Assembly (NCBI GenBank): GCA_017617035.1
Contig: JAFZWV010000017.1
Location: forward strand, 1 to 64,000
Direction: 5' to 3'
Length of the DNA stretch: 64,000 nt
From: Bacteroidales bacterium
GTDB taxonomy: Bacteria > Bacteroidota > Bacteroidia > Bacteroidales > UBA932
The notes under the pieces are model-generated. The model had not been told where the DNA came from. It made no database searches and saw nothing but the letters and a program-made list of their open reading frames with translations. Positions 19,220 through 46,654 of the stretch are shown here, piece after piece. Numbering within the stretch: position 1 is the first letter of the stretch; every line of letters begins with the position of its first letter. Made by a program: the position numbers and the translations under genes.

Positions 19220-19223
19220 GGGC

Positions 19224-23649: not shown

Positions 23650-23689
23650 ATAAAACCGCTTCAGGAGTACCATAATTGCATAATTTTTT

Positions 23690-23697
23690 TATATTTG
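23690..23697 (+). promoter_or_regulatory. -7 element ahead of susC
   Basis: TATATTTG fits TAnnTTTG exactly and lies 38 nt before the susC ATG at 23736, preceded by a T7 run; no good -33 is visible. Confidence 0.55.
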
Positions 23698-23735
23698 TCC
23701 CAATAACACACAACCAAAACCAAAAGTTCAGGCTT

Positions 23736-26714
23736 ATGAATTTTAAAACTGTTCTCAAGGCCGCCTCGGTTTCGTTGCTTCTTGTGCTTGCCGCATTTAC
23801 TGCCGGTGCCCAGAATATCACTATTACTGGTACCGTCATCGATGCAGAAGACGGATCGCCGATTATCGGCGTGGCTGTCGCCAGTTCCAACGGCGGCGGC
23901 GTCATAACGGACCTCGACGGAAAGTACACCATTCAGACCGCCTCAGACGCCACCCTCACCTTCAGCTGTCTCAGCTATAAGGATGTAGTGGAGAAAGTCC
24001 AGGGACGTTCGGTTATCAATGTGGTGATGCAGCCCGACTCCCAGCTTCTTGAAGAAGTTGTCGTTCTCGGTTACACAACCCAGAAGAAAAACGAACTCTC
24101 CAGCTCGGTCGTCACTATGAGCGGCGATGAGCTCACCAACATCACTACCCCCGACGTAGGTAACATGCTTCAGGGTAAGGCTGCCGGTGTTCTCGTCCTC
24201 AACGCATCAGGTCAGCCTGGTGACGCAGCCCAGATCCGTATCCGCGGAACGGGTTCCATCACCGCAAGCGCAGACCCTCTCTACGTTGTCGACGGTGTGG
24301 CCGGCGGTTCGTTCAACCCCAACGATGTAGAAACCATCACCATCCTTAAGGATGCTTCCGCAACAGCTCTCTACGGTGCTTCTGCAGCAGGCGGCGTTAT
24401 CGTCGTTACTACGAAGGGCGCTACCGAGAGCTCGGAAGTGAACTTCAAGGTCAGCGGCGGTATCAAGAAAGCCCTTTCCGGCCGCTTCCGTCCTATGAAT
24501 TCCAGCGAGTTCTACAGCGTCCTCAAACAGGCTTACTCACCTACCGTTTTCGCAGCCCTCTATCCTAAGGAGCTCAAGAAACAGAGCTTCGACTGGATGA
24601 ACGAGTCGTTCCGCACCGGTATCGTCCAGGACTACTATGCATCCGTAGCCGGAAAGGCCGGTAAGACATCTTACTTCGTAAGTATGGACTACTACGACGA
24701 GCAGGGTTCCCTCATCAATACGAACTTCAACAGGGGTTCTGCACGTATCAACCTCTCGACTCCGCTCAGCGACAAGATTACGGTCAACTTCCGCGCGGCT
24801 TATAACCGCACTAAAGAGCAGGGTACTTCTTCGTACGTCACCCTCGAGAGTGCATACTACATGCTTCCTTTCGATAACCCGTACGACGTAAATACCGGAG
24901 AGCCTCTCCTCGTAGATTCGCAGACCCGTTCGGATAACGGAAAGCCCTGGTACTCAGGAAACTCCTACAACATTTTCCACAACGAGCTCTACAACTACGC
25001 AATCGGCCACGGCGAGAGCATCACCGCAGACTTCCAGCTCAACTGGAACATCACCGACTGGCTCATCTTTACCTCTACGACCCGCTACGATTCTTCGAAC
25101 AGCTTCTGGGAGGAATACTACGATCCCCGTACCAACGTCCCCAGCTACTACGGAAAGGGTAGGCTCTACAACTCCAATTCCAGCTGGAGCGGATTCGGTA
25201 CCACCAACCTCCTCAAGTACATCAACACCTTCGGAGATCACAACATCAGCGCTATCGTAGGTCTCGAGTACGGCGGCGGCTTCACCCGCGCCAACACCGT
25301 TACCGGTCAGGGTATGCCTGCAGGCCAGGCTTCAATCAGCGCTTGCCCCACCATCACCAACAACACCGGCTACGATTATCAGAGCCGCTCATGGGCCTGG
25401 CTCGCACAGGCTCAGTGGTCATACCTCGGAAAGTATGTCGTAACAGCATCTATCCGTTACGATGAAACCTCACGCTTCGCCCCCAAGGCCCGCGGCGGTT
25501 ACTTCCCCGGTATCTCCGGTGCATGGATTATCTCCCAGGAAGACTTCATGAACGATGTCGAGGCTCTCAGCTTCCTCAAGCTCCGCGCAGGTTACGGTAA
25601 GACCGGTAACAACAACATCGAAGAATTCCTCTATCAGGACGCATACGAACTTTCCAAGACCTATGGCGGAAACGTCGCGGCCGTGATGGTTCGCCAGTCG
25701 AACCCGAACCTCGGTTGGGAGGAGGCCTACATGACCAGTATCGGTCTTGAGGCCACCACCAAACACGACATCAACATCGGTCTCGACCTCTACCGCACCA
25801 TCAACACCAACCTTCTCCTTGCTGTTCCGGTTCCTCCGAGCACTGGCTTTACAGACTACACCCAGAACATAGGTACCATCAGCAATATGGGTGTTGAGTT
25901 CGTGATCGACGCCCCCATCATCAAGGCCAAGGACCTCAAATGGAACGCTGGTTTCAACGTAGGTATGAACAAGAACGAAGTCCTCTACCTACCCAACGGC
26001 GAATTCCTCCAGAAGGTTGCTTCAGGAGAGTGCCAGCAGGTCAAGGTCGGACAGGACCTCTACACCTGGTACATGAAGAAATGGGCCGGTGTTGATCCTG
26101 CCAACGGCGATCCCCTCTGGGAAGTCGTAGGCGACGACGGTAAGATTACCAAGACGAATGTCTATGCAAATGCTACCATGCAGGCCTGTGGATCCGCTTC
26201 TCCTCTTATGAGCGGCGGCCTCAATACCTCCCTCACCTGGAAGAACTTCTTCTTCAGCGCCAACGGTAGCTTCATCTACGGCAACAAGATCTTCAACAGC
26301 ACCCGTACCTCGATGGATAACGACGGTAGCGATGCTACCCACAACCTTATGTCTATCGACAACGGTCTTGGTTGGAAGCGCTGGAAGAAAGCCGGCGATA
26401 TCGCAACTCACCCGAGAATCGACCTCGGTGGCTCGGGCGGTAAGATTTCTTCCCGCTACCTTGAGGATGGCAGCTTCTTCCGTCTGAGGAATATCACCGT
26501 CGGTTACAATCTCCCCAAGAGCCTTACCGACAAACTCATGATGAAGAATGCGAAGGTTTACCTCTCCGCAGACAACATCTTCACTCTCACCAAGTTCTCA
26601 GGCATGGACCCTGAGGTCCAACTCGAAGGATCCGACTGGCAGCTCGCCGGAACTTACTCGATGAACTATCCTGTTCCGTTCTCGGTTGTTGCAGGTATCG
26701 ACATTAAATTCTAA
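23736..26714 (+). CDS. SusC/RagA-family TonB-dependent outer-membrane transporter
   Basis: I choose the ATG at 23736 (MNFKTVLKAASVSLLLVLAAFTAGAQ), since the upstream in-frame extension hides the signal peptide. The 992-residue protein has an N-terminal carboxypeptidase-like regulatory domain (ITGTVIDAEDGSPIIGVAVA), a TonB box-like LEEVVVLGY, the plug (QIRIRGTGSITASADPLYVVDG) and a C-terminal barrel ending in Phe (VAGIDIKF). It imports oligosaccharides captured with SusD. It has no FecR-type STN domain, so there is no sigma/anti-sigma signalling, consistent with DeoR control. Confidence 0.95.
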   Translation: MNFKTVLKAASVSLLLVLAAFTAGAQNITITGTVIDAEDGSPIIGVAVASSNGGGVITDLDGKYTIQTASDATLTFSCLSYKDVVEKVQGRSVINVVMQPDSQLLEEVVVLGYTTQKKNELSSSVVTMSGDELTNITTPDVGNMLQGKAAGVLVLNASGQPGDAAQIRIRGTGSITASADPLYVVDGVAGGSFNPNDVETITILKDASATALYGASAAGGVIVVTTKGATESSEVNFKVSGGIKKALSGRFRPMNSSEFYSVLKQAYSPTVFAALYPKELKKQSFDWMNESFRTGIVQDYYASVAGKAGKTSYFVSMDYYDEQGSLINTNFNRGSARINLSTPLSDKITVNFRAAYNRTKEQGTSSYVTLESAYYMLPFDNPYDVNTGEPLLVDSQTRSDNGKPWYSGNSYNIFHNELYNYAIGHGESITADFQLNWNITDWLIFTSTTRYDSSNSFWEEYYDPRTNVPSYYGKGRLYNSNSSWSGFGTTNLLKYINTFGDHNISAIVGLEYGGGFTRANTVTGQGMPAGQASISACPTITNNTGYDYQSRSWAWLAQAQWSYLGKYVVTASIRYDETSRFAPKARGGYFPGISGAWIISQEDFMNDVEALSFLKLRAGYGKTGNNNIEEFLYQDAYELSKTYGGNVAAVMVRQSNPNLGWEEAYMTSIGLEATTKHDINIGLDLYRTINTNLLLAVPVPPSTGFTDYTQNIGTISNMGVEFVIDAPIIKAKDLKWNAGFNVGMNKNEVLYLPNGEFLQKVASGECQQVKVGQDLYTWYMKKWAGVDPANGDPLWEVVGDDGKITKTNVYANATMQACGSASPLMSGGLNTSLTWKNFFFSANGSFIYGNKIFNSTRTSMDNDGSDATHNLMSIDNGLGWKRWKKAGDIATHPRIDLGGSGGKISSRYLEDGSFFRLRNITVGYNLPKSLTDKLMMKNAKVYLSADNIFTLTKFSGMDPEVQLEGSDWQLAGTYSMNYPVPFSVVAGIDIKF

Positions 26715-26729: not shown

Positions 26730-28517
26730 ATGAAAAAAGTATTTTACATAGCAATAGCAACTCTTCTCGTTGCAGCGTGCAATATGGATTTCTATCGCTC
26801 GGACACCATGACATCAACCATGCTCAAGAGCGATCCGGGTGCAGCAGTCTACACCACCGACGGTCTGTATTCGATGTTCAAGGACGTGATCCTCTTCGAA
26901 GGCAGCGAGTACTCGAACAACACCTGGGTGAAGCACTACTTCCAGCTCACTGAGTTCCGCGGAGACAACGTCGCCCAGGGTCGTGCTTCCGAAGACCCGT
27001 TCACAAATATTATGAATTACACAGAGGACCAGGGTCAAGAGTGCTATAACATCGGTTATTTCTGGTATGTCTCCTATAAGATACTCTTCGGAGCCAACTC
27101 CAATATCGAGGCTATCCAGGAAGGTGCAACCGCAGAAGGAGATCTCCTCCTCGGCGAGAACTACTTCATCCGTGCATTCGTCCACTTCGCTCTGGCAAAC
27201 ATTTATGCCCGCCCGTACTATGTAGAAGGCAGAGGCACTAATGCAAACGAGCCTTGTGTTATACTTCGAACCTCTACCGACTGCTCGAAGACCGAAAAGG
27301 CTACCATTGAGCAGGTTTACAAGTCGGTTGAAGACGACTGCAATAAAGCCTACCAGCTCCTTCAGGGCAAGAAGCGCAGGGGTGACAAGGGATTCGTAGG
27401 CGAAGAGGCTCCTCTCGCCCTCCTTTCCCGCCTCTACCTCTACAAAGGCGACTGGGATAAGTGCATCGAGGTTTCCGAGCAGCTTCTCGGAGCCGATCCT
27501 GCAAGCAAGCTCGATCCCAACCTTGACAATCTCTTTGTCAACGCCCCGAATTCCGTTGAGACCATCTGGTGCATCGACCGCGCAATCACTGACTACCAGT
27601 ATTCGCAGCACGCCCAGCTCGGTTCAATGTACTACTCCTCGACAGGCGTAGGCGGTGTGGGCTGGTGCGAGATCTACTCTTCGGAGCAGCTCGTTGACCT
27701 TCTCTACCGCTGGGAGGATGAAGGACGCCGCAAGGCCTACTTCGCCTATGCAGCCCCTATCGAAGGACAGCTGATGGTTAGCTGGCCTGAGAAGCAGGGT
27801 GCAGGACTAACCTATCGTCTCGATGTGATGATTACTTCGTCAAAGAACCCCGACGGTTCTTACACCCCCAATGTGACTGACAACGGCGACGGTACCCTTA
27901 CCGCCAAGTCTGGCGACAACACTTACATCATTAAGAAGAAGACAGTCAACAAGGATGTCAAGTACTACATCGAGGGTTACGAAACCGACGCAGAAGATCA
28001 GGACGATATCGAAGGAGGAACCCGCGTATTCGTACGCACCGCCCAGGATGCTTCGAAGGGCACCCGTCTTACCATGCCCGCTTACATGAACAAGAAGTTC
28101 ACGGGCCAGGGTGGCGAAGAGCTCCTCAGCTCCAACATCTTCTTCCGCTATGGAGAGACCATCCTCAACGCGGCAGAAGCTTATGCCCACAAAAATGACG
28201 CAGTCAATGCTGTCAAGTACATGAACTACGTCAGGGCAAGGGCCGGCCTCACCGGAGACGCTCTCTATACTACAACTAACCTGGCAGCTAGCGGCTATGA
28301 CAATATCCTCGACGCGGTTCTCGACGAAAGGCGACTCGAGCTCTTCTATGAGGGCTTCCGTGGTTACGATCTCTACCGCAACGGCAAGGATATTTTCCGT
28401 AAGTATGCGGGTGTCCACGACTGGGAGATTATTCCGAACGCGGATCTCGATAACAAGTTCCCTTGCTACATCCCTTACGCAGAAACTGTAGTAAGTGGCG
28501 TTACCAGCAACAAATAA
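26730..28517 (+). CDS. SusD/RagB-family surface glycan-binding lipoprotein
   Basis: The protein has 595 residues with lipobox TLLVAACNMD (Cys16). SusD hallmarks include the TPR-like segment LLGENYFIRAFVHFALANIYARPY near 135-158, the late segment RYGETILNAAEAYAHKNDAVNAVKYMNYVRARAGL and the C-terminal DERRLELFYEGFRGYDLYRNG. It forms the lid on the SusC barrel encoded 15 nt upstream and gives first contact with the glycan at the cell surface. Confidence 0.95.
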   Translation: MKKVFYIAIATLLVAACNMDFYRSDTMTSTMLKSDPGAAVYTTDGLYSMFKDVILFEGSEYSNNTWVKHYFQLTEFRGDNVAQGRASEDPFTNIMNYTEDQGQECYNIGYFWYVSYKILFGANSNIEAIQEGATAEGDLLLGENYFIRAFVHFALANIYARPYYVEGRGTNANEPCVILRTSTDCSKTEKATIEQVYKSVEDDCNKAYQLLQGKKRRGDKGFVGEEAPLALLSRLYLYKGDWDKCIEVSEQLLGADPASKLDPNLDNLFVNAPNSVETIWCIDRAITDYQYSQHAQLGSMYYSSTGVGGVGWCEIYSSEQLVDLLYRWEDEGRRKAYFAYAAPIEGQLMVSWPEKQGAGLTYRLDVMITSSKNPDGSYTPNVTDNGDGTLTAKSGDNTYIIKKKTVNKDVKYYIEGYETDAEDQDDIEGGTRVFVRTAQDASKGTRLTMPAYMNKKFTGQGGEELLSSNIFFRYGETILNAAEAYAHKNDAVNAVKYMNYVRARAGLTGDALYTTTNLAASGYDNILDAVLDERRLELFYEGFRGYDLYRNGKDIFRKYAGVHDWEIIPNADLDNKFPCYIPYAETVVSGVTSNK

Positions 28518-28568: not shown

Positions 28569-29321
28569 ATGAAGAAATTCTTCTTTTACGCTGCAATGTT
28601 CGCAGCACTGAGCCTTGGCTTCAACTCATGCAAGGACAACAACGCCATCGACGATGACGAAGACGGCGAGGAGTTCGTTTCCAAGATTAAGGTCGACGGC
28701 GATTTCGCGGACTGGGCAACTCTCGACGCCAGCAAGGTTGCTGTCGCTCAGAACGCCAACGCAGACAAGAACGCCCTCAAGGTCCTCAAGGCTTATGCCG
28801 ACAAGGTCTACCTCAACATCTACTTTGAGTTCGACGGCGATCAGGTCGTTGATAGGGAGTGGCCCGCAGTACACGTCTACCTCAACAGCGATGGTGACAA
28901 GACCACCGGTGGCTATGGTGACGAGTTCGCAGACGCTTGCGTAGACTGCATGATGGAGACTGCTATCTTCTCCGGCGGCGAGTGGAACGACTGGAACCCT
29001 TCATTCTGGAAGTGGTGGGGCGAAGCCAACGGAACCGGTTGGGAGTGGGTTGAGCCCGGCAGGCCTGGCGACGAAGCCGACATGTGGGGTGCTATCCTTC
29101 CTGAGGGATCCGGCATCGCTCACGGTATGGGAAGCGGCAACGCTTACGAGATCCAGATCATCCGCGAGATGCTCCCTGGTATCGCTTTCGCAGACACCTT
29201 CGGAGTTGGTATCGACATCCAGCAGAACTGGAGCTCGATCGCATGGCTTCCTAACGCAGCCAGCAGCGACGACAACGCCAACGGTCTTGCCGCTATGCTC
29301 GACGTTACCATCGACAAATAA
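28569..29321 (+). CDS. Surface lipoprotein with CBM9-like domain (SusE/F position), paralogue 1
   Basis: The protein has 250 residues with lipobox FNSC (Cys21) followed by an acidic stretch (KDNNAIDDDEDGEE), a typical Bacteroidota surface-export signal. KVDGDFADWATL at about 41-52 is the opening motif of CBM9-like/DUF1083 sugar-binding beta-sandwiches, and the body is Trp-rich (WNDWNPSFWKWWGE, GWEWVEPG), as expected of a glycan-binding cleft. It sits in the SusE/SusF position after susD and ends at a strong terminator. A paralogue is encoded at 32175. Confidence 0.72.
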   Translation: MKKFFFYAAMFAALSLGFNSCKDNNAIDDDEDGEEFVSKIKVDGDFADWATLDASKVAVAQNANADKNALKVLKAYADKVYLNIYFEFDGDQVVDREWPAVHVYLNSDGDKTTGGYGDEFADACVDCMMETAIFSGGEWNDWNPSFWKWWGEANGTGWEWVEPGRPGDEADMWGAILPEGSGIAHGMGSGNAYEIQIIREMLPGIAFADTFGVGIDIQQNWSSIAWLPNAASSDDNANGLAAMLDVTIDK

Positions 29322-29341
29322 TCGATCGGCATGATTTATCC

Positions 29342-29378
29342 GGCCATAGCCGCCACACCCGGTGGCTATGGCCTTTTT
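29342..29378 (+). terminator. Intrinsic terminator after the first CBM9-like gene
   Basis: GGCCATAGCC (29342-29351) pairs with GGCTATGGCC (29364-29373), extended by GCC/GGT pairs, then TTTTT. It may dampen expression of the downstream DUF4874/DUF4832 genes relative to susCD. Confidence 0.85.
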
Positions 29379-29419
29379 AATTAAGAATACAAGCCCACAC
29401 CTTAATAACACAACCATCC

Positions 29420-30823
29420 ATGAAGACGAAAGCATTGTTAGTAGTTTTAGGTTTGTCCATGCTGGCATCATGGTGCATCTCCTGCGATAAGCCTAATAAA
29501 GGTCCCGTAGACCCCGATGCGGACTTTGTATCCTTGAGAAGGGTGGATTTTGATGTAGACGACAAGGAGTTTGCTAATCCCGAACGCGGCTGGTTCACGC
29601 ATCGTGAATTCAAGGCCTCTTCAGGCATGTCGGTTATTTCCGACGAATTACTTGAAGCCCAGCGCGCGCTCAACAGAACTCTAATTTATACTATTTACTA
29701 TCTCGACTCATTCTTTGAGTCACCTATCTCGCAGGAATATCTCAATTATCTGGACGCCAATATGGACGCCCTCCGCAGAAACGGATTCAAATGCGTGCTC
29801 CGTTTTGCCTACAAGAGATCCTACAGCGAGAACGCACATCCCTGGGATCCTACTCAGGAAGTAATCAACGGCCACGTTGAACAACTCAAACCGTTCTTCC
29901 AGAAAAACGCCGATGTTATCTTCGTCCTTGAGGCAGGCTTTATCGGCACCTTCGGAGAGTGGTACTACACAGACAATTACAACTTCGACCCCAAGACAGT
30001 CGAAGACTATATACCCCGCCGCGGTCTTCTTGACAGGCTCCTGGCGGCCGTTCCCGACAAGCGACAGATTGCAATTCGTTACCCGGGAGCCATCATAAGC
30101 ATGCTCGACATCACCGCAGCCGATACCCTTACGAGAAAAACAGCCCACAACGGATCCATCCTTTCGCGCCTGGCAAACCACAACGACTGCTTCGTCTCGT
30201 CAAACAATGATGTGGGAACATATCAGAGCCTCGTTCAGAGAGACTTTGTCTATGCCAATTCCAAGTACACCATCTGGGGCGGCGAGACCTGCAACTTAGC
30301 CCTTGCCGGCCATTGCGAGAATTCCCTTCTGATGTCGAAAAAGCACCATATGACCTATCTCAACGACGACTACCACAAATCGGTACTCAACCGTTGGAAG
30401 GAAGAGGGCTGCTTCGACGAGATTTCGTTCCACATCGGCTACCGCCTCTTTATCGACCGTGCGTTCATTACCCCCGAACCCGCCAAGGGCCAGGAACTTC
30501 ATGTTGGACTTCAGATCCACAATGAAGGATATTCCGCGCCCCAGAACCCGAGGAAAGTTGAACTCGTGCTGGTCGGTCCAGAGACCCGTGTTTTCGATAT
30601 CGACGCCGATCCGCGCTTCTGGTTCGAGGACGAGGAGTCTACACTCAATATTAAAGTTACCCTCCCTGAGAACATGGCTTCCGGCAAGTACAAGGTTTGC
30701 CTTAACCTGCCCGATCCGGAGCCTACCCTCCACGACAATCCCCGCTACTCCATCCGCCTTGCCAATAAGGGCACCTGGGATGAAGAAACTGGATATAACA
30801 CAATTACTGAAATTACACTTTAA
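29420..30823 (+). CDS. DUF4874/DUF4832 lipoprotein, paralogue 1
   Basis: The protein has 467 residues with a lipobox (SWCISCDKP). It has an N-terminal DUF4874 block (FANPERGWF near 50-58; FVLEAGFIGTFGEWYYTDNY near 170-190) and a C-terminal DUF4832 block. Conserved NHNDCFVSS, YTIWGGETCN, HMTYLNDDYH and NLPDPEPTLHDNPRYSIRLAN segments recur in the two paralogues downstream. The pattern suggests a TIM-barrel-like hydrolase with a C-terminal beta domain. Conserved Glu in FGEW and in GGET are candidate catalytic acids by inference only. No biochemical function is known to me. It is the most divergent of the three copies. Confidence 0.78.
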   Translation: MKTKALLVVLGLSMLASWCISCDKPNKGPVDPDADFVSLRRVDFDVDDKEFANPERGWFTHREFKASSGMSVISDELLEAQRALNRTLIYTIYYLDSFFESPISQEYLNYLDANMDALRRNGFKCVLRFAYKRSYSENAHPWDPTQEVINGHVEQLKPFFQKNADVIFVLEAGFIGTFGEWYYTDNYNFDPKTVEDYIPRRGLLDRLLAAVPDKRQIAIRYPGAIISMLDITAADTLTRKTAHNGSILSRLANHNDCFVSSNNDVGTYQSLVQRDFVYANSKYTIWGGETCNLALAGHCENSLLMSKKHHMTYLNDDYHKSVLNRWKEEGCFDEISFHIGYRLFIDRAFITPEPAKGQELHVGLQIHNEGYSAPQNPRKVELVLVGPETRVFDIDADPRFWFEDEESTLNIKVTLPENMASGKYKVCLNLPDPEPTLHDNPRYSIRLANKGTWDEETGYNTITEITL

Positions 30824-30826
30824 AGC

Positions 30827-32170
30827 ATGAAAAGAGCATTCCCTGTTCTTCTTGTCTTAGCGGCTCTGCTGGTTGGGTGCAAGCCCGACCAGCCGGATCC
30901 GTACAAGGATCTCAAAAAGTTGGAATTCAAAGCCACTGACGAGAATTTCGCCAACCCCGAAAGAGGTTTCTACAGACCTGTCGAAATCCATTCAGTAGAA
31001 GGACAGGCTATCAAGGCGACCACCGTCACCAGCCTGCGCAAATTCGGATTCTCGCTTATATTGCTTGAATTCTATCTGACAGAGTATATGGAGTCTGACA
31101 TAGAGCAGGCTTATCTCGACAAGATCCAGGATGCTTTCAACAATCTTCGCGAAGGTGGCGGAAAAGCTATAGTGCGTTTCGCATACAAAAACAACGAGAA
31201 CGATCGGCCATGGGACGCAACAGAACAGTGGGTGCTGCGCCACATTCAGCAGGTGAAACCCATCCTGCAGGCTAACGAAGATGTACTCTTTGTTCTTCAG
31301 GCCGGTTTCGTAGGAGTGTGGGGCGAATGGTATTACACCACCAACTTCAATATGAACCCTTCGTCGGAGGCCTCTTACGAGCCCAGAAAGCATGTCCTCA
31401 ACGCCCTGCTTGATGCGGTTCCGAAGAGCAGGCAGGTCCAGCTCCGCACCCCCGAGTTCAAGATGAAACTGATGAATGTCAGCCTCGCTGATACGATTAC
31501 CCGCGCTACTGCCCACACCGAGACAGATATAGCCCGAGTCGGAGGCCACAACGACTGCTTCCTGGCATCCATCAACGACACTGGCACCTTCCACGGCGAT
31601 ACCGACCGCAGTCTTTGGAAATCCGACACCCGCTACACTATCATGGGCGGAGAATCGTGTAATCCTTCGCAGTACTGCGCTTGCGACAACGCCCTCAAGG
31701 ATCTCACAGACTATCACTGGACTTACCTGAATAGTGCATACCACACCTCTGTGCTCGGCCGCTGGCGCACTGAAAACTGTTACGAAGAAGTGGAACTTAG
31801 GCTTGGTTACAGGCTTGCCATCGAAAAGGGATACATTTCCGATTCCCGCCTGGTTCTCAAAATCAAGAACGAGGGCTTTGCAGCCCCTCAGAACCCCCGC
31901 GGCGCAGAACTTATCATCATCGATGCAGCAGGCAAGAAGACTGTCACCAAACTTGATGTTGACCCCAGGACATGGTTCGCAGGTGTAACCAGTACGGTAG
32001 ATATCACCCTCCCTACACTTTCGGCTGGCGAGTACACACTTTATCTCAACCTGCCCGACCCTCAGCCCACGCTGCACGACAACCCGTTCTACTCAATCAG
32101 GCTTGCCAACGCAGATGTCTGGGACGAGACTACAGGATACAATAAGATTGCAACAATAAACATACAATAG
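30827..32170 (+). CDS. DUF4874/DUF4832 lipoprotein, paralogue 2
   Basis: The protein has 447 residues with lipobox ALLVGCKPD. Conserved blocks in order: NFANPERGFYRP, VLQAGFVGVWGEWYYTTNF, QLRTPEFKMKLM, GGHNDCFLAS, RYTIMGGESCN, YHWTYLNSAYHTSVLGRW, RLGYRLAIEKG, and LNLPDPQPTLHDNPFYSI. It is three bases downstream of paralogue 1 and four bases upstream of the second CBM9-like gene. Clearly closer to paralogue 3 than to paralogue 1, it has probably arisen by tandem duplication followed by insertion of the intervening genes. Proposed to act on the glycan at the surface; the bond cleaved or bound is unknown. Confidence 0.78.
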   Translation: MKRAFPVLLVLAALLVGCKPDQPDPYKDLKKLEFKATDENFANPERGFYRPVEIHSVEGQAIKATTVTSLRKFGFSLILLEFYLTEYMESDIEQAYLDKIQDAFNNLREGGGKAIVRFAYKNNENDRPWDATEQWVLRHIQQVKPILQANEDVLFVLQAGFVGVWGEWYYTTNFNMNPSSEASYEPRKHVLNALLDAVPKSRQVQLRTPEFKMKLMNVSLADTITRATAHTETDIARVGGHNDCFLASINDTGTFHGDTDRSLWKSDTRYTIMGGESCNPSQYCACDNALKDLTDYHWTYLNSAYHTSVLGRWRTENCYEEVELRLGYRLAIEKGYISDSRLVLKIKNEGFAAPQNPRGAELIIIDAAGKKTVTKLDVDPRTWFAGVTSTVDITLPTLSAGEYTLYLNLPDPQPTLHDNPFYSIRLANADVWDETTGYNKIATINIQ

Positions 32171-32174
32171 ACTT

Positions 32175-32909
32175 ATGAAATTCAGATTTGTTCTTGCCGC
32201 AGCAGCGGCCGCAGCAGCACTGCTTTTCGTTTCATGTAACAACACTCCCGTAGACGAGGAGGAAGAAGACGATGATGAGCCGGGACTGGTTGATACCAGC
32301 GCTATCCAGATCGACGGAGATTTCGCCGACTGGGAGGGCCTCGAAGGAGTAGCGGAAGCCACCCTTCCGAAGGGTGATGTAGCATTCGAAGCCATGAGAG
32401 TTTTCAAGGCTTATGCAGATCCCGACTATATCTTCCTTTACTTCGAGATGGACAAGTCGGATCTTGCTACCATGGACCTTTTCATCGACACCGACAACAG
32501 CAAGGCCACTGGCCAGACCGCTAACTGGCCCGAGATGGGCGCGGAGGTTCTTCTACAGGCATCTTTCAACCCGTCACAATCCATCGGAGCCTCTACCTAT
32601 AATCCCATCGTTCGCCTTTACGGCGGCGAAGAGGGCGGCACCGACTGGGCATGGGTCGATGAGGCAGGTATGAACTTCACCACTTCCAGCGCAGCTGTCG
32701 ACAAGGGCGGCAACGTAATCGCCGTCGAGCTTAAGATGATACGCGAACTGATGGTTCCGGTTGTCTTCGGCGACTCCTTCACTATCGGTGCTATTATCGA
32801 GAACACTGGTTGGAGCATTGTAGGTAAGCTTCCCGCTATTACAGAAGACGAGAAAGCCGAAGGAACCCAGGAAGCCGGTCTTGTTGTAAGGGTATCGCCT
32901 AAAGCATAA
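32175..32909 (+). CDS. Surface lipoprotein with CBM9-like domain, paralogue 2
   Basis: The protein has 244 residues with lipobox LLFVSCNN and a strongly acidic export stretch (DEEEEDDDEPG). IQIDGDFADWEGLEG mirrors the IKVDGDFADWATL of the protein at 28569, and both share VFKAYAD, an FEMD/FEFD strand, DTDNSKATG-like Ca-binding loop residues and a TDWAWV/GWEWVE segment. A glycan-binding surface protein is the likely role. It is embedded between DUF4874/DUF4832 paralogue 2 and the GH31 gene with spacings of 4 and 3 bases, which ties the binding protein to those enzymes. Confidence 0.75.
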   Translation: MKFRFVLAAAAAAAALLFVSCNNTPVDEEEEDDDEPGLVDTSAIQIDGDFADWEGLEGVAEATLPKGDVAFEAMRVFKAYADPDYIFLYFEMDKSDLATMDLFIDTDNSKATGQTANWPEMGAEVLLQASFNPSQSIGASTYNPIVRLYGGEEGGTDWAWVDEAGMNFTTSSAAVDKGGNVIAVELKMIRELMVPVVFGDSFTIGAIIENTGWSIVGKLPAITEDEKAEGTQEAGLVVRVSPKA

Positions 32910-32912
32910 TAC

Positions 32913-34502
32913 ATGACCTGCAGACTACGCTCCATTACTCTATTGGCGCTTCTTCTGCCGCTGCTTTTCGGCTGCTGCAGAAGAGCCCTTACTATTCCCC
33001 TTGAAGACGGAGAGGCCGTCTGGGGAGGCCATATCAAGGACGGCTCACTGATGCCGTTCGCTCCCGGCTTCGAAACCTCGCTGGAGTACAATCTCTCCAA
33101 TCAGGTTAATCCTCTGCTTCTCACTTCAGGAGGAAAGTATGTCTGGAGCGAGTCCCCATTCTCTTTTAGAATCGAGGCTGGTGAGATAGTTATTACATCC
33201 CACCATTCCGATATAGTCTGGGAGAAAGCCGGAGAGACTCTGTCCGACGCATTCAAAACCGCGTCATCTAAGTTCTTCCCCGCCGACGGCAAGCTGCCCC
33301 CGAAGGAGTTCTTCGAGATGCCTCAGTACAACACCTGGATCGAACTGATGTACAATCAGAACCAAGCCGGAGTACTGGCATACGCAAAGGGTATCCTGGA
33401 CAACGGGCTTCCTCCCGGAATTATAATGATCGACGATACCTGGCAGGAAGACTACGGAAAATGGGTCTTCCACCCGGGCCGTTTCCCGAACCCCAAGGCT
33501 ATGTGTGACCAGCTCCACACAATGGGGTTCAAGCTGATGCTGTGGATATGCCCGTTCGTGAGCATGGACCAGTATCAGATCTGCCGCGAGATCATGGACG
33601 GCAAGGGCTTCCTGCTCACCGGCGCCCAGACTTGGGAAGAGGCTAATGACCCGTATCCCGTGCGATGGTGGAACGGGACCTCGGCCGTGCTCGATTTCTC
33701 CAACCCGGCGGCGGTAGAGTGGTTCGACCGGCAGCTTAAGCGCCTGACCGACGACTATGGGGTCGACGGCTTCAAGTTCGACGCGGGCGACTTCGACTTC
33801 TACCCGGCCGACGCTCTCGCGAAGGGCGGAAATGTCCCCGCGTGGGAGCAGTGCTCAATGTTCGTGGACCATGCCACCAACTATCCGTACAACGAGCTGC
33901 GTGCCGGATGGCGCAACGCCGGAAGGCCGGTGGTCAACCGTCTCCATGACAAGGGCCACAGCTGGGAAGACCTGCGCAAGCTCATCCCCGAAATGATGGC
34001 CGAGAGCCTGATGGGCTTCAGTTTCTGCTGCCCGGACATGGTCGGCGGCGGCAGCTTCGAAACCTTCCTGAGCGGGCAGACCGACCCCGAGCTCATCGTC
34101 CGCTCGGCCCAGGTCCATGCACTTATGCCCATGATGCAGTTCTCGCTGGCGCCATGGCGAGTGCTCGATAAAGCGCACTACGCTGCGGTCTTGAAGGCCG
34201 TCGAGATCAGGCAGGCCAGGCTCCCGCTTATCGAAAGCCTGTTCGAGCGCGCAGCCAAGACTGGCGAGCCTATAGTAGCGCCGCTCGAGTACGTCTTCCC
34301 CGGCGAGGGACTTGCCCGCGTGGTCGACGAATTCATGCTGGGCGACAGGGTGCTTGTAGCGCCCATGCAGGAGAGCGGCACCTCGCGTACCGTCATCCTC
34401 CCGGCAGGCCAGTGGAAGGCCGACGACGGCCAGGTTTATGAAGGCGGGCAGCACGTCATCGACGTCCCGCTCGACCGTTTACCAGTATTTGAAAGATTGT
34501 AA
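32913..34502 (+). CDS. GH31-family glycosidase lipoprotein (NET37/MYORG-like)
   Basis: The protein has 529 residues with lipobox LLFGCC. A short N-terminal beta domain precedes a GH31 TIM barrel. GIIMIDDTWQEDYGKW opens the barrel, FKLMLWICPFVSMD follows, and GVDGFKFDAGD carries the nucleophile Asp290. RPVVNRLHDKGHSWEDL lies where the acid/base loop is expected. The layout resembles the NET37/MYORG branch of GH31, which includes alpha-galactosidases; GH31 also contains alpha-N-acetylgalactosaminidases. It lacks the large insertions of alpha-glucosidases. Exo-acting release of alpha-Gal or alpha-GalNAc fits the locus. Confidence 0.8.
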   Translation: MTCRLRSITLLALLLPLLFGCCRRALTIPLEDGEAVWGGHIKDGSLMPFAPGFETSLEYNLSNQVNPLLLTSGGKYVWSESPFSFRIEAGEIVITSHHSDIVWEKAGETLSDAFKTASSKFFPADGKLPPKEFFEMPQYNTWIELMYNQNQAGVLAYAKGILDNGLPPGIIMIDDTWQEDYGKWVFHPGRFPNPKAMCDQLHTMGFKLMLWICPFVSMDQYQICREIMDGKGFLLTGAQTWEEANDPYPVRWWNGTSAVLDFSNPAAVEWFDRQLKRLTDDYGVDGFKFDAGDFDFYPADALAKGGNVPAWEQCSMFVDHATNYPYNELRAGWRNAGRPVVNRLHDKGHSWEDLRKLIPEMMAESLMGFSFCCPDMVGGGSFETFLSGQTDPELIVRSAQVHALMPMMQFSLAPWRVLDKAHYAAVLKAVEIRQARLPLIESLFERAAKTGEPIVAPLEYVFPGEGLARVVDEFMLGDRVLVAPMQESGTSRTVILPAGQWKADDGQVYEGGQHVIDVPLDRLPVFERL

Positions 34503-34506
34503 AGAT

Positions 34507-35952
34507 ATGAAACGCTTACTCACGTTCTTTGCAGCCGCGGCGCTGCTGTGTTCCTGCGATGATTTCCAGTTGCCCGACTTCGGCTTCAAGCCGAGCGGCG
34601 GCGACAAAACTGAAAAGCCCGACGAGAAGCCCGACGAGCCGCTGCCCGACAACACCGGTTCCGACGCCCCGGGCGGCTACGACTGGACCGGAGTGAAATA
34701 CAATTTCGAGGAGTCTACCGATGTCATCGCCAACCCCGAGAGGGGCTTTATGAAGTATCAGGACTTCAAGAGCAAGACTTCGGCGCTCAAAGCTTCGGCC
34801 GTCAAGGCCCAGAGAGCGGAAGGCCGTACGCTTTACTACACAGGCTACTACCTTACCGACTTCATGAACGGCGACATCTCCGAGGCCTTCCTTCAGAAGA
34901 TTCAGGACACGATGGACGCCCTGCGCGAAGGCGGCGCGAAATGCGTTCTTCGCTTCGCCTACAAGGAGAGCGAAAGCGACAAACCGTGGGATCCGACCGA
35001 AGAAATAGTGATGCGCCATATCGCTCAGCTCAAGCCCATCCTGCAGAGGAACGAGGACGTGATTTTCGTGCTTCAGGCAGGATTTGTAGGCGTCTGGGGT
35101 GAGTGGTACTACACCACCAATTTCAAGTACCAGCCGTCTACCAACGACGATTACCTGCCGCGCAAGAGAGTCGCCGAGGCTCTTCTCGACGCGCTCCCCG
35201 CTTCTCGCCAGGTCGAGCTCCGTACCCCTCAGTTCAAGATGAGGATGTACGGCCTTTCGCTTAAGGATACCCTTACCGCAAAGACTGCCCACAAAGGCCA
35301 GACCCTCGACCGCCTCGCCGGCCATAACGATTGCTTCGGCGCAGCCTACGACGACTGGGGAACCTTCGACAACGAGAGCAACGACCGCGCATTCTGGAAG
35401 GCCGAGACCCGCTACACCATCATGGGCGGCGAGACCTGCAACGTTTCCGATTACTGCACCTGCCAGGCATCGACTAAGGACATGGTCGATTATCACTGGA
35501 CTTATCTCAACATAGATTATCACACCAGTGTCATCAACGGCTGGAAAAACAACAACTGCTACAATGAGATCGTGAACAGGCTGGGCTACAGGCTCGTCCT
35601 GCAGAACGTGGAGCGCAAGGAAGATCTGAAGGCAGGAGAAGATCTCGAGATCGCTATCAACTTCCGCAACGACGGCTATGCCGCCCCGATGAATCCGCGC
35701 CGCGTTGAGCTCGTCTTTGTAGACGCCAGCGGTAAGGAAACCAAGTTCCAGGTCGCATCCGACCCGAGGAAGTGGCAGCCCGGCGCCCACACCGTTCTTA
35801 CCAAGTTCAAGCTCCCCGCAGAAAAGGGAACCCTGTATCTGAACCTCAGCGATCCCCTGCTGCCGAACAATCCGCTCTACAGCATCGCATTCGCAAACAA
35901 GAACGTATTCGATTCGAAGACAGGTTACAACAAACTGTTCGAGCTTAAATGA
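34507..35952 (+). CDS. DUF4874/DUF4832 lipoprotein, paralogue 3
   Basis: The ATG at 34507 (MKRLLTFFAAAALLCSCDDFQ) is chosen over an upstream in-frame ATG inside the GH31 gene because it restores the lipobox. A linker rich in Lys, Pro and Asp (about 30-55) separates the signal from the domain. The conserved blocks are those of paralogue 2 with high identity (VLQAGFVGVWGEWYYTTNF, ELRTPQFKMRMYG, RYTIMGGETCN, YHWTYLNIDYHTSVI), and the C-terminal block is NLSDPLLPNNPLYSI. It is followed by a gene overlapping it by 4 nt. Function unknown; see the findings for a testable proposal. Confidence 0.78.
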   Translation: MKRLLTFFAAAALLCSCDDFQLPDFGFKPSGGDKTEKPDEKPDEPLPDNTGSDAPGGYDWTGVKYNFEESTDVIANPERGFMKYQDFKSKTSALKASAVKAQRAEGRTLYYTGYYLTDFMNGDISEAFLQKIQDTMDALREGGAKCVLRFAYKESESDKPWDPTEEIVMRHIAQLKPILQRNEDVIFVLQAGFVGVWGEWYYTTNFKYQPSTNDDYLPRKRVAEALLDALPASRQVELRTPQFKMRMYGLSLKDTLTAKTAHKGQTLDRLAGHNDCFGAAYDDWGTFDNESNDRAFWKAETRYTIMGGETCNVSDYCTCQASTKDMVDYHWTYLNIDYHTSVINGWKNNNCYNEIVNRLGYRLVLQNVERKEDLKAGEDLEIAINFRNDGYAAPMNPRRVELVFVDASGKETKFQVASDPRKWQPGAHTVLTKFKLPAEKGTLYLNLSDPLLPNNPLYSIAFANKNVFDSKTGYNKLFELK

Positions 35953-36674
35953 GAATCTACGGCGCCATAGCTGCAGCGCTGCTTGCAGTGCTGGCAGTAT
36001 CGTGTAAGACCGAATCAATCAAGGGCTACTGGGACCGGCATGCCCCTGACATCAGTGATATCCGCACTGCGGAAGACGAGTTCTCGAAATTTGCAGAACT
36101 GGCTGTAGCAGCGCCGGAAGAAGACGCCCAGGCCGAAATAGACCATCTGTTCGACTTGCTTAAGAAAGACGAAGTCGCATTCTACGTCTACACGGAGTGG
36201 ACGGTATCGGCGTTCTACTCAGCCGCTTCGCCTTGCAGGAACTGCCCTCTGTTCGTCTATTCGATGAACAGGATACTCTCAGACGGAATAATCGACGGTT
36301 ACGACGCGGAGATGTACACCCGCTTTGTAACTGCGTGCTCGACCAACCTGGTCGGTGACAAGGTTACTCTCCCACCGCTTCGCGACGAGCGTGGTTCTGA
36401 AATCACCTTGGAGCATGGCCAAACCACCCTGTACATGGTCGTCAACCTTACCTGTCCGAGTTGCCTGAAGGCTCTCGACAAGTATGCGGATTTCAGGCCT
36501 GATGCCGTCCATATCGCCCTATGCAGCGGCCCCGGCAGGCTTCCCTCTGCAGCAGGTTGGGAATACATCAGGGCGGTTAATACCGACGAAATATACGATG
36601 TTGACGCAGCCCCGTTCTACTTCGTAGAGAACGCCGACGGAACAATCGAAACAACCTACACAAGAGCTTTATGA
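35949..36674 (+). CDS. Thioredoxin-like lipoprotein (DUF5106-type)
   Basis: The protein has 241 residues with lipobox LAVSCKTES. The N-terminal helical part (residues 20-120) contains CRNCPLF, and the C-terminal part has a thioredoxin-like fold with NLTCPSCLKAL (CxxC near residues 162-165), then the PFYFVEN cis-Pro-like segment. It resembles the DUF5106/AhpC-TSA lipoproteins of Bacteroidales, which are expected to handle disulphides in the envelope. It overlaps the genes on both sides by 4 nt, so it is translated as part of the PUL operon, perhaps helping fold the Cys-containing surface enzymes. Confidence 0.65.
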   Translation: MRIYGAIAAALLAVLAVSCKTESIKGYWDRHAPDISDIRTAEDEFSKFAELAVAAPEEDAQAEIDHLFDLLKKDEVAFYVYTEWTVSAFYSAASPCRNCPLFVYSMNRILSDGIIDGYDAEMYTRFVTACSTNLVGDKVTLPPLRDERGSEITLEHGQTTLYMVVNLTCPSCLKALDKYADFRPDAVHIALCSGPGRLPSAAGWEYIRAVNTDEIYDVDAAPFYFVENADGTIETTYTRAL

Positions 36675-38242
36675 GAATGAAGAGAATGATGATTCCGGCG
36701 CTGGTTTTGGCCGGAGCGATGCTTTTCGCCTGCAACACGGATAATCCCGGCAAAGACGAAGGCAAGAAAGAGGAAGAAAAACCCGTTGTGGACTACACGC
36801 CCCAGCCCGGCACCTACACTTTCGTGATGCCCGACTATAAGGTCAAGGGCGGCACTTCTTACGGCAAGACTACCTGGGAAGCCGGCGACCAGATTTATGT
36901 CCACGGCAACTATGATCCGTATTCAATCATCGTAACCCTGAAGGCAGAAGATATCTCCGCAGACGGAAAAACCGCTACGGTCGACCTTACCGAGGTTCCT
37001 AAGACAGGCGCCGCGCCCGATAAACTCTACGCGGCCTTCCCTGCCGACCATGTAGCCATCGAATCCTCCTTCTGCGACGCCACCAACCGCTATATCCCCA
37101 ACGGAGACATGCTGATGACAGCTTATCTGACCGAAGGCAATAAATTCGAATTCATCCATGTCACCGGCGCCATGGCATTCACTACTACCGAGCCATGCGA
37201 CAGTTTCGTCGTCGTAGGAAACGCCAGCGAGGAGCTCGTATTCGATTGCCTCGGAGTGCAGGTTACCAGCGAGGTGGAACTCTACCGCCTCGAAGTCGGC
37301 GAGGGCCATCGCTTCTACCGCCAGGCGATGAACGATGGTTGCGGAATAGCCTATATCCCCGTCAGGACCATCTTCAGCGAGAAGGGCTTCAACATCTACC
37401 TTAAGAAGGGCGACAAGTATCCGAAGGTATACCGCCATATAGAATCAGTTACAGTGGCCCATGGCACCGTAATTGACCTGGGCGACATCACCGCACAGCT
37501 CGAAGATTACGAAGGTCCCGACCCCGTAGATCCTATTATGCCTGAGATTGGCACCTACGAAAGGATCATGGTCGACGTCGAAGAATTGTCCGGCATATGC
37601 CTCACGGCCGAGAAGGATGCATTCTGGGCTGTCGGAGATCAGGGCCAGCTCGCAAAGGTCTCGTTCGACGGCGAAGTCACAAAGATCAAGAACTTCAACA
37701 ACGACCTCGAGGCCATAACTCTCCACACCCCGTCCGGAGATCTCTGGATAGCGGCCGAGGGTTCTCAGAAGGTCTACAAGTGCGAAGCCCCATACACCTC
37801 CTACACGTCTATGTTCACGGTCGACGATGCCAAGAACTACGGCAACAGCGGCCTCGAAGGAATTGCATACTACAAAGACAGCCTAATCTATGTAGGCGCC
37901 CAGACCGGAGCCAATCTCTGGACTTACACTCTCGATGGCGAAAAGCTCGACATGGTCAGCCTCAAGAAGCTTTCGAGCAAGGTTATCGAGATCGGAGGAC
38001 TATGCTATGACGCTGTCAACGACTGGCTGTGGGTAACTGATTCGGAAAGCCATCGTGTCCACGTCTTCTCCGGAGATGCCACCACCTTCCTTAAGAGTTA
38101 CCGTGTCCCCTATTGCGGCAACAATGAGTCTATCTGCGTCGACCACGAACGCGGCTATGTTTATGTCGGCGACGATGATGACAGCAATCCTTCCATCTAC
38201 AAGATACATTTTACCGGACTTAAACCCGAAGATCGCAAATAA
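36671..38242 (+). CDS. Lipoprotein with fimbrillin-like N-domain and SdiA-regulated-type beta-propeller
   Basis: The protein has 523 residues with lipobox MLFACNTD and an acidic/Lys linker. Residues 40-290 resemble fimbrillin-type beta-sandwiches (DYTPQPGTYTFVMPDY, KFEFIHVTGAMAF). Residues 300-515 form a propeller with repeated strands (LSGICLTAEKDAFWAVGD, LEAITLHTPSGDLWIAAEG, LEGIAYYKDSLIYVGAQTG, IGGLCYDAVNDWLWVTDSE) typical of the SdiA-regulated family, which includes calcium-dependent esterase/lactonase-like and phytase-like propellers. The domain combination is unusual. It overlaps the flanking genes by 4 and 1 nt. Confidence 0.7.
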   Translation: MRMKRMMIPALVLAGAMLFACNTDNPGKDEGKKEEEKPVVDYTPQPGTYTFVMPDYKVKGGTSYGKTTWEAGDQIYVHGNYDPYSIIVTLKAEDISADGKTATVDLTEVPKTGAAPDKLYAAFPADHVAIESSFCDATNRYIPNGDMLMTAYLTEGNKFEFIHVTGAMAFTTTEPCDSFVVVGNASEELVFDCLGVQVTSEVELYRLEVGEGHRFYRQAMNDGCGIAYIPVRTIFSEKGFNIYLKKGDKYPKVYRHIESVTVAHGTVIDLGDITAQLEDYEGPDPVDPIMPEIGTYERIMVDVEELSGICLTAEKDAFWAVGDQGQLAKVSFDGEVTKIKNFNNDLEAITLHTPSGDLWIAAEGSQKVYKCEAPYTSYTSMFTVDDAKNYGNSGLEGIAYYKDSLIYVGAQTGANLWTYTLDGEKLDMVSLKKLSSKVIEIGGLCYDAVNDWLWVTDSESHRVHVFSGDATTFLKSYRVPYCGNNESICVDHERGYVYVGDDDDSNPSIYKIHFTGLKPEDRK

Positions 38243-39363
38243 TGAAAAAGACACTCGTTTTTGCCGCTTTGATTGCGGTATTGGCTGTCTCCTGCAAGGA
38301 GAAAAGCGGCCTGCAGTACTACCAGACCGACCGCACCTACGATATTGTTTCAGTTAAAGAACCCGCGCAGGACGCCGAAGTTCGCAACGTCATCATCATG
38401 ATTGGCGACGGTATGGGCCTCGAGCAGGTCAGCTGCGGATGGGTTGTCAATAAAGGTAAACTCAACCTTGACAACTTCACTGCCACCGGTCTCTCGCGCA
38501 CATGGTGTACGGACAAGCTGATTACCGATTCGGGCGCGGGCGGAACCGCCATTGCGGCCGGTGCAAAGACGGCCTACTGCCATGTGGGCACGGCCCCCGA
38601 CAACTCCGACCTGCCTAGCGTGCTGGTTAAGGCGCAAAAACTCGGAAAGAAGACCGGAACCGTCGTAACCTGCCATTTTGCAGACGCTACGCCGTGCGAT
38701 TTCTGCTGCCACAACGAGCACCGATACAACCAGGAAGACCTCATCGCCGACTACATCGAGAGCGGTGTTGATTACCTCGCCGGCGGCGGACTGGACTGGT
38801 TCACGACTAAGCGCACCGACGGACGCGACATCACCGAAGAAATGTCCGCCGCTGGCTACAACGTCGCCCTCGACGAAGCCGCTCTGATGAGCGCCGAACT
38901 GCCCGTTATCGGCATCCTTTCGCCCGACAATCTGCCCGTGGCGAAGGAGAGGGGCGACCTCTTCCGCAGGATGGTCAAGCGCGGTCTCGATCAGCTTTCT
39001 GCCGAGCCCAAGGGCTTCGTGATGATGATCGAAGGCTCATGCATCGACGACTGGCTCCATGGCAACGACATCGGCAAGGCCATGGAGGAGCTGCTCGACT
39101 TCGACCGCACTATCGGCGACGTTCTCGAATGGGCGGCCAATGACGGCCACACCCTGGTAGTCGTCACCGCCGACCATAACACCGGCAGCCTGACCCTGCA
39201 GGACGGCAATCTCGAAGAGGGCGTCATCGGCGTCCATTTCGCCAGCGAGGGCCACAACGGCATCGCGGTCCCGATTTACGCCTGGGGCCCCGGTTCGAAG
39301 GCGTTTACAGGCATTTGTGAAAACGAAGACTGGGGTAAATTGATCGCAACGTTCGTTAAATAG
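38242..39363 (+). CDS. Alkaline phosphatase lipoprotein
   Basis: The protein has 373 residues with lipobox LAVSCKEKS. Metal and catalytic motifs are MIGDGMGLEQ (Asp56), TDSGAGGTAIAAG with nucleophile Ser97, and TADHNTGS (Asp311, His312), matching the alkaline phosphatase superfamily (PhoA-type). It hydrolyses phosphomonoesters in the periplasm or on the surface. Its start codon shares a base with the stop of the propeller gene (TAATG). It is the last gene of the PUL operon and the second extracytoplasmic phosphatase of the locus. Confidence 0.88.
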   Translation: MKKTLVFAALIAVLAVSCKEKSGLQYYQTDRTYDIVSVKEPAQDAEVRNVIIMIGDGMGLEQVSCGWVVNKGKLNLDNFTATGLSRTWCTDKLITDSGAGGTAIAAGAKTAYCHVGTAPDNSDLPSVLVKAQKLGKKTGTVVTCHFADATPCDFCCHNEHRYNQEDLIADYIESGVDYLAGGGLDWFTTKRTDGRDITEEMSAAGYNVALDEAALMSAELPVIGILSPDNLPVAKERGDLFRRMVKRGLDQLSAEPKGFVMMIEGSCIDDWLHGNDIGKAMEELLDFDRTIGDVLEWAANDGHTLVVVTADHNTGSLTLQDGNLEEGVIGVHFASEGHNGIAVPIYAWGPGSKAFTGICENEDWGKLIATFVK

Positions 39364-41460: not shown

Positions 41461-41498
41461 CTTAGTAGGTTGAGGGAGAAGCCACCCGGAAAGTGACA

Positions 41499-44267: not shown

Positions 44268-44324
44268 AAATCATTAAATACAATATATAACTCACTAATT
44301 ATTAACTTTTTAACATTTTTCATT

Positions 44325-45554: not shown

Positions 45555-45569
45555 TGCTCTATTTGCCTG

Positions 45570-45589: not shown

Positions 45590-45603
45590 TGGGTCCCAAG
45601 ACA

Positions 45604-46653: not shown

Positions 46654-46654
46654 G

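Follow-up and report, generated by a model that had tools for sequence, protein, structure and literature searches.

Three DUF4874-DUF4832 lipoproteins, very probably glycoside hydrolases, in a SusC/SusD locus that probably serves the use of an alpha-linked galactosamine polymer

The pel operon of Streptococcus intermedius encodes SIR_1591, a DUF4832 protein with hydrolase activity; it disrupts Pel-dependent aggregates, and its deletion gives no phenotype in that organism. The protein consists of a barrel (residues 60-350) followed by DUF4832 (residues 351-454) (PMC12345266). Cell-free Pel is partly de-N-acetylated alpha-1,4-N-acetylgalactosamine (GalNAc) (PMC12345266), and galactosaminogalactan (GAG) is a partly deacetylated polymer of alpha-1,4-linked galactose (Gal) and GalNAc (PMC7229062). 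DUF4832 genes are also found in streptococcal and clostridial, that is, Gram-positive, pel clusters (PMC7112168). Here, we describe three DUF4874-DUF4832 lipoproteins, named D1, D2 and D3, encoded in a SusC/SusD locus of a Bacteroidales bacterium (UBA932), within a stretch of 64,000 nucleotides (the window: positions 1 to 64,000 of contig JAFZWV010000017.1, assembly GCA_017617035.1). D1-D3 are very probably glycoside hydrolases, and we consider it probable that the locus serves the utilization of an alpha-linked galactosamine polymer of the Pel or galactosaminogalactan kind, a substrate favoured because of a linkage of the family to pel genes and because of the partner genes of the locus. The genes at its centre are as follows:

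28569..29321, + strand: CBM9-like lipoprotein 1; no Pfam match, acidic stretch after the lipobox, predicted to lie at the surface
29420..30823, + strand: D1, DUF4874-DUF4832 lipoprotein, predicted endo-glycosidase; Glu180 and Glu289 correspond to Glu167 and Glu276 of D2
30827..32170, + strand: D2, DUF4874-DUF4832 lipoprotein, predicted endo-glycosidase; Glu167 and Glu276
32175..32909, + strand: CBM9-like lipoprotein 2, paralogue of CBM9-like lipoprotein 1 (E 8e-23)
32913..34502, + strand: GH31 enzyme of the 8j50/8j53 alpha-galactosidase type (E 6e-156 to 8j50; Pfam GH31 E 5e-33)
34507..35952, + strand: D3, DUF4874-DUF4832 lipoprotein, predicted endo-glycosidase; Glu199 and Glu309

Both domains are recognized with ease in D1, D2 and D3: DUF4874 (PF16173) at E 8e-39, 2e-45 and 3e-43 (133-155 bits against a cut-off of 30.1) and DUF4832 (PF16116) at E 2e-55, 8e-55 and 6e-55 (186-189 bits against a cut-off of 29.2). 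Pairwise identities are 43-52%. Chance is no concern for three full-length, two-domain paralogues. All the genes named in the original prediction are present: within a SusC/SusD locus, the three lipoproteins alternate with a GH31 enzyme and two CBM9-like paralogues, and the GH31 enzyme is real (E 5e-33). The spacing of 3-4 bases given for them holds between D1 and D2 (3), D2 and CBM9-like 2 (4), CBM9-like 2 and GH31 (3) and GH31 and D3 (4), but 98 bases separate CBM9-like 1 from D1. Likewise, among the shared motifs, NPERG and GEWYY are exact in all three D proteins, whereas AHNDCF is exact in none (HNDCF is found in 3/3), YTIMGGE and HWTYLN occur in D2 and D3 but not in D1 (GGE and TYLN alone are common to the three), and LHDNP is found in D1 and D2 but not in D3. 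The open reading frame (ORF) of D3 begins, at its longest, at 34438; a lipoprotein-type start is obtained from 34507. In a quick tree of 144 rows, D1 and D3 each fall in a well-supported group that includes genes from other genomes, whereas D2 belongs to neither group and has a poorly supported position; D1-D3 are thus old paralogues retained side by side, with no recent triplication. A fourth, highly diverged DUF4832 protein is encoded in the same genome (L004; contig C4, 3849-4244 in the contig); its kin amount to 23 thinned sequences, one of which shares a locus (L069) with D genes, and, by coordinates, proteins of this type lie within a few kb of D genes in two genomes, G015 and G025. At least 571 stretches with relatives of the D proteins were confirmed in one scan. 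Viral contigs, searched with one query, gave no confirmed relative, and a search by sequence of solved structures with D2 and with profile A1 gave no match.

E167 of D2, in the motif GxWGE, and E276, in GGE, are invariant in 141 of 141 rows of a homologue alignment (thinned at 80% identity, D2 included twice), 101 of which come from loci found by two motifs, one containing E167; both are kept in all 36 rows that came from non-motif searches outside the window. R117, R207, R237 and D243 are also kept in 141/141 rows. Profile comparison with hhalign links the D proteins to three remote DUF4832 groups (E 3e-20, 6e-17 and 1e-9, as single comparisons), in all of which glutamates stand opposite E167 and E276. 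Of eight other families compared, SusD reached E 0.0014, with its match in the N-terminal region, and the remaining seven (KbaZ, GH31, GH36-like, GH109, AgaS, GH42 and GH114) stayed at E 0.046 or above. Moreover, three remote DUF4832 proteins (L028, L031 and L033) match GH42 (PF02449) above the cut-off, over about 100 positions in the first half of the model. Paired glutamates of the 4/7 type are the rule in clan GH-A, a clan of retaining glycosidases. E167 and E276 form such a pair on the predicted strand numbering. Because the pair is shared with the remote DUF4832 groups, and because of the GH42 matches of three remote proteins, DUF4874 together with the first part of DUF4832 would most simply form a barrel, with a putative acid/base on strand 4 and a putative nucleophile on strand 7.

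The invariant glutamates, the homology to DUF4832 proteins, three of them with a GH42 match, and the streptococcal precedent together make it very probable that D1-D3 are glycoside hydrolases. Against this stand the selection bias carried by the motif-derived rows, the E value of 0.27 (no match) given by hhalign between D and three GH42 proteins, and the comparison with SIR_1591 itself, made through its published domain layout and the DUF4832 name alone, so that specificity could differ. In addition, PF02449 is not among the families listed at E 10 for 18 members of A1, and membership of D1-D3 in GH42 was rejected, neither comparison giving a direct match; GH114 was rejected as a homologue as well, there being no profile match to three Flavobacterium GH114 proteins. 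The candidate new glycan-cleaving system of the original prediction is supported in kind, although indirectly, by the glutamate pair, the GH42-matching remote relatives and SIR_1591, but not as an activity without precedent, since the hydrolase activity of SIR_1591 is published (PMC12345266). It could also be envisaged that D1-D3 are non-catalytic surface glycan-binding proteins with a retained fold: their genes are woven among those of binding lipoproteins and SusD, and like architectures side by side are usual for binding proteins. The two glutamates, R117, R207, R237 and D243, invariant throughout the alignment, form a pattern of catalytic constraint, and SIR_1591 is active, and we regard a purely binding role as very unlikely.

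As to the substrate, part of the evidence comes from Flavobacterium, where, in four loci (L120, L121, L122 and L129), a D gene faces a cluster coding for a DUF2194 protein, a 656-residue protein, a GH114 protein, a PelG-like exporter (26 bits against a cut-off of 29) and PelF; one of these loci, L121, ends before the last three genes of the cluster. In work on Agd3, a fungal deacetylase, bacterial operons that combine GH114 with genes for a glycosyltransferase and a membrane protein are described as serving Pel/GAG-like biosynthesis (PMC7229062), and the Flavobacterium cluster fits this description and is read accordingly. The same kind of cluster with a divergent DUF4874-DUF4832 gene is also seen in L205 and L206. 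The genus of G405 was covered by 150 genomes, 15 of which have PelF, 19 DUF4874 and 14 both, so that DUF4874 is present in 14/15 genomes with PelF against 5/135 others (Fisher p 9e-15, uncorrected for kinship). Eight of the 14 genomes have the two on one contig, with a D copy 10.6-11.0 kb from PelF in all eight, and in the remaining six they lie on different contigs. The genus is probably Flavobacterium, since two Flavobacterium copies of PelF share 87-89% identity with that of one member, G736; the D copy of G736 ends in a type IX secretion tail.

The partner genes upstream of the D cluster are these:

14459..15865, - strand: GH109, predicted alpha-N-acetylgalactosaminidase (Pfam GH109_C E 6e-37); lipoprotein-type start judged by eye
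17393..19294, - strand: GH36-like enzyme; solved relatives include FpGalNase, which acts on de-N-acetylated galactosamine (GalN) (9awt E 8e-54)
19224..20177, - strand: PfkB-family sugar kinase (Pfam PfkB E 7e-45)
20334..21125, + strand: AgaR-like DeoR regulator (AgaR model E 5e-65, 219 bits against a cut-off of 260)
21301..22419, + strand: AgaS-family sugar isomerase/deaminase (TIGR02815 E 5e-103, 345 bits against a cut-off of 529)
22423..23649, + strand: GatZ/KbaZ-like tagatose-bisphosphate aldolase subunit (Pfam E 2e-35; NCBIfam score below cut-off)
23676..26714, + strand: SusC-like TonB-dependent transporter (Pfam Plug, CarbopepD_reg_2)
26730..28517, + strand: SusD-like glycan-binding lipoprotein (Pfam SusD_RagB E 1e-26)

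Pfam and NCBIfam scans of the window, covering 30 proteins, a subset of its ORFs, found what defines a polysaccharide utilization locus, namely SusC and SusD accompanied by lipoproteins, by exo-enzymes and by a regulator. The GH109, GH36-like and GH31 enzymes, exo-type in the original prediction, all have solved relatives. The nearest solved relatives of the GH31 enzyme are alpha-galactosidases (8j50, E 6e-156; 8j53, E 1e-143); its homology to 8j50 is full-length, and the aspartate of KFDAGD, an alanine in entry 8j52, is retained. According to Ikegaya, Miyazaki and others, these alpha-galactosidases reportedly prefer alpha-1,4-galactobiose. GH109 is closest to 6t2b (GH109, E 2e-85) and 2ixa (alpha-N-acetylgalactosaminidase, E 6e-61), and the GH36-like enzyme matches FpGalNase (9awt) at E 8e-54, its top match being 8x1b (E 3e-54), labelled alpha-galactosidase and almost the same in sequence as 9awt. 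FpGalNase removes de-N-acetylated galactosamine, and nine active-site residues are reported for it (PMC11762096); eight of these, W317, D346, D347, W387, K461, D463, C513 and D532, are conserved wherever a row is not gapped at the position, among 15 rows including that of the window, on the assumption that chain numbering is shifted by 26. With an alpha-galactosidase, an alpha-galactosaminidase and a GH109 alpha-N-acetylgalactosaminidase as nearest solved relatives, the three enzymes together fit a predicted polymer of Gal, GalNAc and GalN. A NagA-type deacetylase above cut-off was found neither in the genome itself (0/1) nor in 12 relatives (0/12, with two weak matches), while AgaS-like genes are present; NagA is above cut-off in only 10/149 genomes of the order, and its absence was accordingly dropped as proof of a GalN substrate.

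The same enzymes could instead act on host glycans with terminal alpha-GalNAc or alpha-Gal, such as mucin O-glycans, blood-group A/B and Forssman structures, with the D trio releasing or trimming glycans and not cutting a polymer. A GH109 of Bacteroides thetaiotaomicron, encoded in a mucin locus with GalNAc metabolism, is active on Tn and Forssman structures as well as on those of blood group A (PMC11992087); FpGalNase is known as an enzyme for the conversion of blood group A (PMC11762096), and animal digestive tracts are named in the titles of many near relatives. Yet no match to a sialidase, fucosidase, GH16 or M60 was found among the 30 window proteins scanned, the family of the D enzymes occurs in pel biosynthesis loci, and D proteins are also present in Alkaliflexus, Cytophagales and Flavobacterium; we thus hold a host-glycan target to be unlikely. 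In this respect, the role originally proposed, on an alpha-GalNAc-rich polymer or a mucin-type glycan, is narrowed: the pel linkage and the partners speak for an alpha-GalNAc/GalN polymer, and mucin is less likely.

The two CBM9-like lipoproteins are paralogues, as predicted (30% identity over 206 positions, E 8e-23), but neither the protein at 28569 nor that at 32175 has a Pfam match at E 10, and membership in the CBM9 family was ruled out by this result. Some DUF4832 fusion proteins have C-terminal domains homologous to them: the D proteins of two loci, L006 and L140, carry a fused domain that matches these paralogues (hhalign E 1.4e-10 and 3e-10), and a third fusion, in L130, is weaker (E 1.8e-5); the best of seven controls reached E 1e-4, with a match confined to the signal peptide region. 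Because of the fused domains in L006 and L140, the CBM9-like lipoproteins are likely binding partners of the D enzymes.

With a threshold of E 0.001, DUF4832 was matched in 41/200 genomes, that of the window included, some of these matches being weak and remote. The order SusC, SusD, CBM9-like, D is kept in 10 of 20 stretches from 15 genus members, three of which continue others and several of which are cut at an end. In the 44 near loci (L054-L097; flanks of 10 kb, cut genes missed), the neighbours include SusD (36), CBM9-like (34), DUF5106 (32), phosphatase (26), EamA (24), AgaR (18), AgaS (17) and KbaZ (17). DUF4874 itself is rare, being present in 16 of 395 evenly drawn genomes of the phylum, that of the window included. 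The other 15 genomes contain 17 DUF4874 loci, eight of which have homologues of GH31, GH36-like, GH109 or AgaS (GH31 in 4, GH109 in 4, AgaS in 2, GH36-like in 1), against 0/40 control SusD loci drawn from 11 DUF4874 genomes and five genus members (p 1.5e-5); the test detects close homologues of the window proteins, and SusC was found in 35/40 controls. Thus, the idea that DUF4874 genes recur beside GH109, AgaS and the like in other genomes is borne out in 8/17 loci of the phylum, whereas the other 9/17 lack all four partners.

Those nine loci are among several observations that speak against an alpha-galactosamine polymer. GH36-like is present in only 6/44 near loci, GH31 in 4/44 and GH109 in 0/44 (the GH109 gene of the window itself lies more than 10 kb from the D genes, beyond the flank used), and any of GH31, GH36-like, GH109 or AgaS in only 23/44. 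Of 33 distant named loci, 24 have at least one of the four and nine have none; four of the nine carry pel-cluster genes. AgaS, AgaR and KbaZ are the best or near-best models for their proteins, at scores below the curated cut-offs; Y464 of FpGalNase is replaced by Gly in 15/15 GH36-like rows; and the alpha-galactosaminan leaves the phosphatase genes of the locus unexplained. A Ruminococcus cellulosomal (dockerin) protein carries DUF4874-DUF4832 as well (PMC7480376), and a capsule cluster of Klebsiella includes DUF4832 (PMC6258164). Two of the partnerless phylum loci, L139 and L141, have neighbours in common that are of exopolysaccharide type, among them a Wzy-like gene in L139, and, because of these and the other partnerless loci, the wider DUF4874-DUF4832 family may have several substrates. 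Accordingly, DUF4832 barrels might attack exopolysaccharides generally, with D1-D3 as hydrolases of mixed specificity and another alpha-galactoside-rich bacterial or plant exopolysaccharide as their target. The members beside Wzy-type exopolysaccharide genes (L139, and L141 by shared neighbours), the Klebsiella and dockerin occurrences, the GH31 enzyme as an alpha-galactosidase homologue, and the separate supported groups of D1 and D3, copies that may hence differ in specificity, would all agree with this; the AgaS- and AgaR-like genes, GH109 and the GalNase-like GH36 point instead to amino sugars, and we find mixed specificity an improbable explanation.

Four loci from Capnocytophaga, Bacteroides congonensis and Dysgonomonas (L098, L103, L104 and L109) have GH31 next to a D gene and a SusC-like gene, with a protein of about 1375 residues standing between, in L098 a hybrid two-component regulator; this arrangement is a second locus type. 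A contig labelled Leptolinea (Chloroflexota; L075) has SusC/SusD-like and D genes and is perhaps a misbinned Bacteroidota contig. For an actinobacterial copy, from Nonomuraea (L131), three neighbours were scanned with no informative Pfam match.

Downstream of D3, the locus continues with genes found again in the near loci:

35949..36674, + strand: DUF5106-like protein (27.6 bits, slightly below the cut-off of 28); conserved locus partner, 32/44 near loci
36671..38242, + strand: SdiA-regulated/phytase-like propeller protein (domain match); 22/44 near loci
38242..39363, + strand: alkaline-phosphatase-family protein (Pfam E 1e-59); 26/44 near loci
39461..40387, + strand: EamA-type transporter (Pfam E 5e-22); 24/44 near loci

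Phosphatase- or phytase-like genes thus number three within or beside the locus (15870-17381, 36671-38242 and 38242-39363). Streptococcal pel operons contain CotH-kinase-like and polyphosphate-polymerase genes (PMC12345266), and these genes, together with the phosphatase- and phytase-like genes, hint at a phosphorylated Pel in some cases; the conserved phosphatases would suggest that the natural polymer bears phosphate in some of its forms. Fimbrillin-like (Mfa_like_1) and DUF3575/DUF5119 genes adjoin the locus (41493-49591), and an IS200-like transposase gene lies at 6098-7051 (weak Y1_Tnp match).

Taken together, the observed gene content, homologies, invariant glutamates and gene associations allow a scheme to be proposed in which fold, catalytic roles, endo mode, surface exposure and substrate are all predictions. 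D1-D3 would be outer-membrane lipoprotein glycoside hydrolases with a TIM barrel made of DUF4874 and the first part of DUF4832, followed by a beta-sandwich; E167, at the end of strand 4, would act as acid/base and E276, at the end of strand 7, as nucleophile. They would cut the polymer within the chain, at the cell surface, aided by the two CBM9-like binding lipoproteins, and SusC/SusD would bring the oligosaccharides in. GH109 would then take off GalNAc, the GH36-like enzyme de-N-acetylated GalN, and GH31 Gal, and AgaS, PfkB and KbaZ would channel the sugar into the tagatose route. We further put forward, as possible rather than probable, that this is the first recognized utilization locus for a cationic alpha-1,4-galactosaminan of the Pel/galactosaminogalactan type, and that gut, mouth and environmental Bacteroidota feed on the biofilm matrix of other microbes by means of a new glycoside hydrolase family (DUF4874-DUF4832), which, secreted and bearing a type IX tail, would also guard Flavobacterium pel loci. 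Biofilms of Pseudomonas, streptococci, Bacillus and Aspergillus are held together by Pel and galactosaminogalactan, for which few cleaving enzymes are known. If the proposal is correct, the locus and its relatives would provide a new set of biofilm-cutting enzymes, a function could be named for two DUF families, and biofilm matrix would be suggested as food for gut bacteria.

GH114, GH135 and GH166 comprise endo-alpha-1,4-(N-acetyl)galactosaminidases such as Ega3, Sph3 and PelA. The D proteins would share with these the probable substrate and role, but have no profile match to Flavobacterium GH114 proteins or to solved structures. With the GH42 beta-galactosidases of clan GH-A they share the paired glutamates of the 4/7 type, the PF02449 matches being limited to remote DUF4832 relatives. 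SIR_1591 is alike in its layout, with a barrel of about 290 residues preceding DUF4832 at the C-terminus, in its length of about 470 residues, in being extracellular and in its link to an alpha-1,4-GalNAc polymer (PMC12345266); in contrast, it is a single copy in a Gram-positive biosynthesis operon, whereas three lipoprotein copies are encoded here in a SusC/SusD utilization locus. The BT4240-50 mucin/GalNAc locus of B. thetaiotaomicron is likewise a SusC/SusD locus with GH109 and GalNAc catabolism, but it differs in encoding a GH2 enzyme together with a GalNAc kinase and an M60-like peptidase, and no DUF4874-DUF4832 protein is described there in the passages of PMC11992087 consulted. The GH31 alpha-galactosidases 8j50/8j53 and the GH36 enzyme FpGalNase (9awt) are the nearest solved relatives of the two exo-enzymes, whose specificity is predicted from them, with the catalytic aspartates kept; FpGalNase differs in Tyr464, which is Gly in the GH36-like enzyme of the locus. 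A search of the open-access literature, judged mostly from listings, found no report of a Pel or galactosaminogalactan utilization locus. Thus, what is already known is the activity of a DUF4832 relative (PMC12345266), and what is new is the setting in a utilization locus, the glutamate pair, the linkage to pel in Flavobacterium and the set of galactosaminidase partners.

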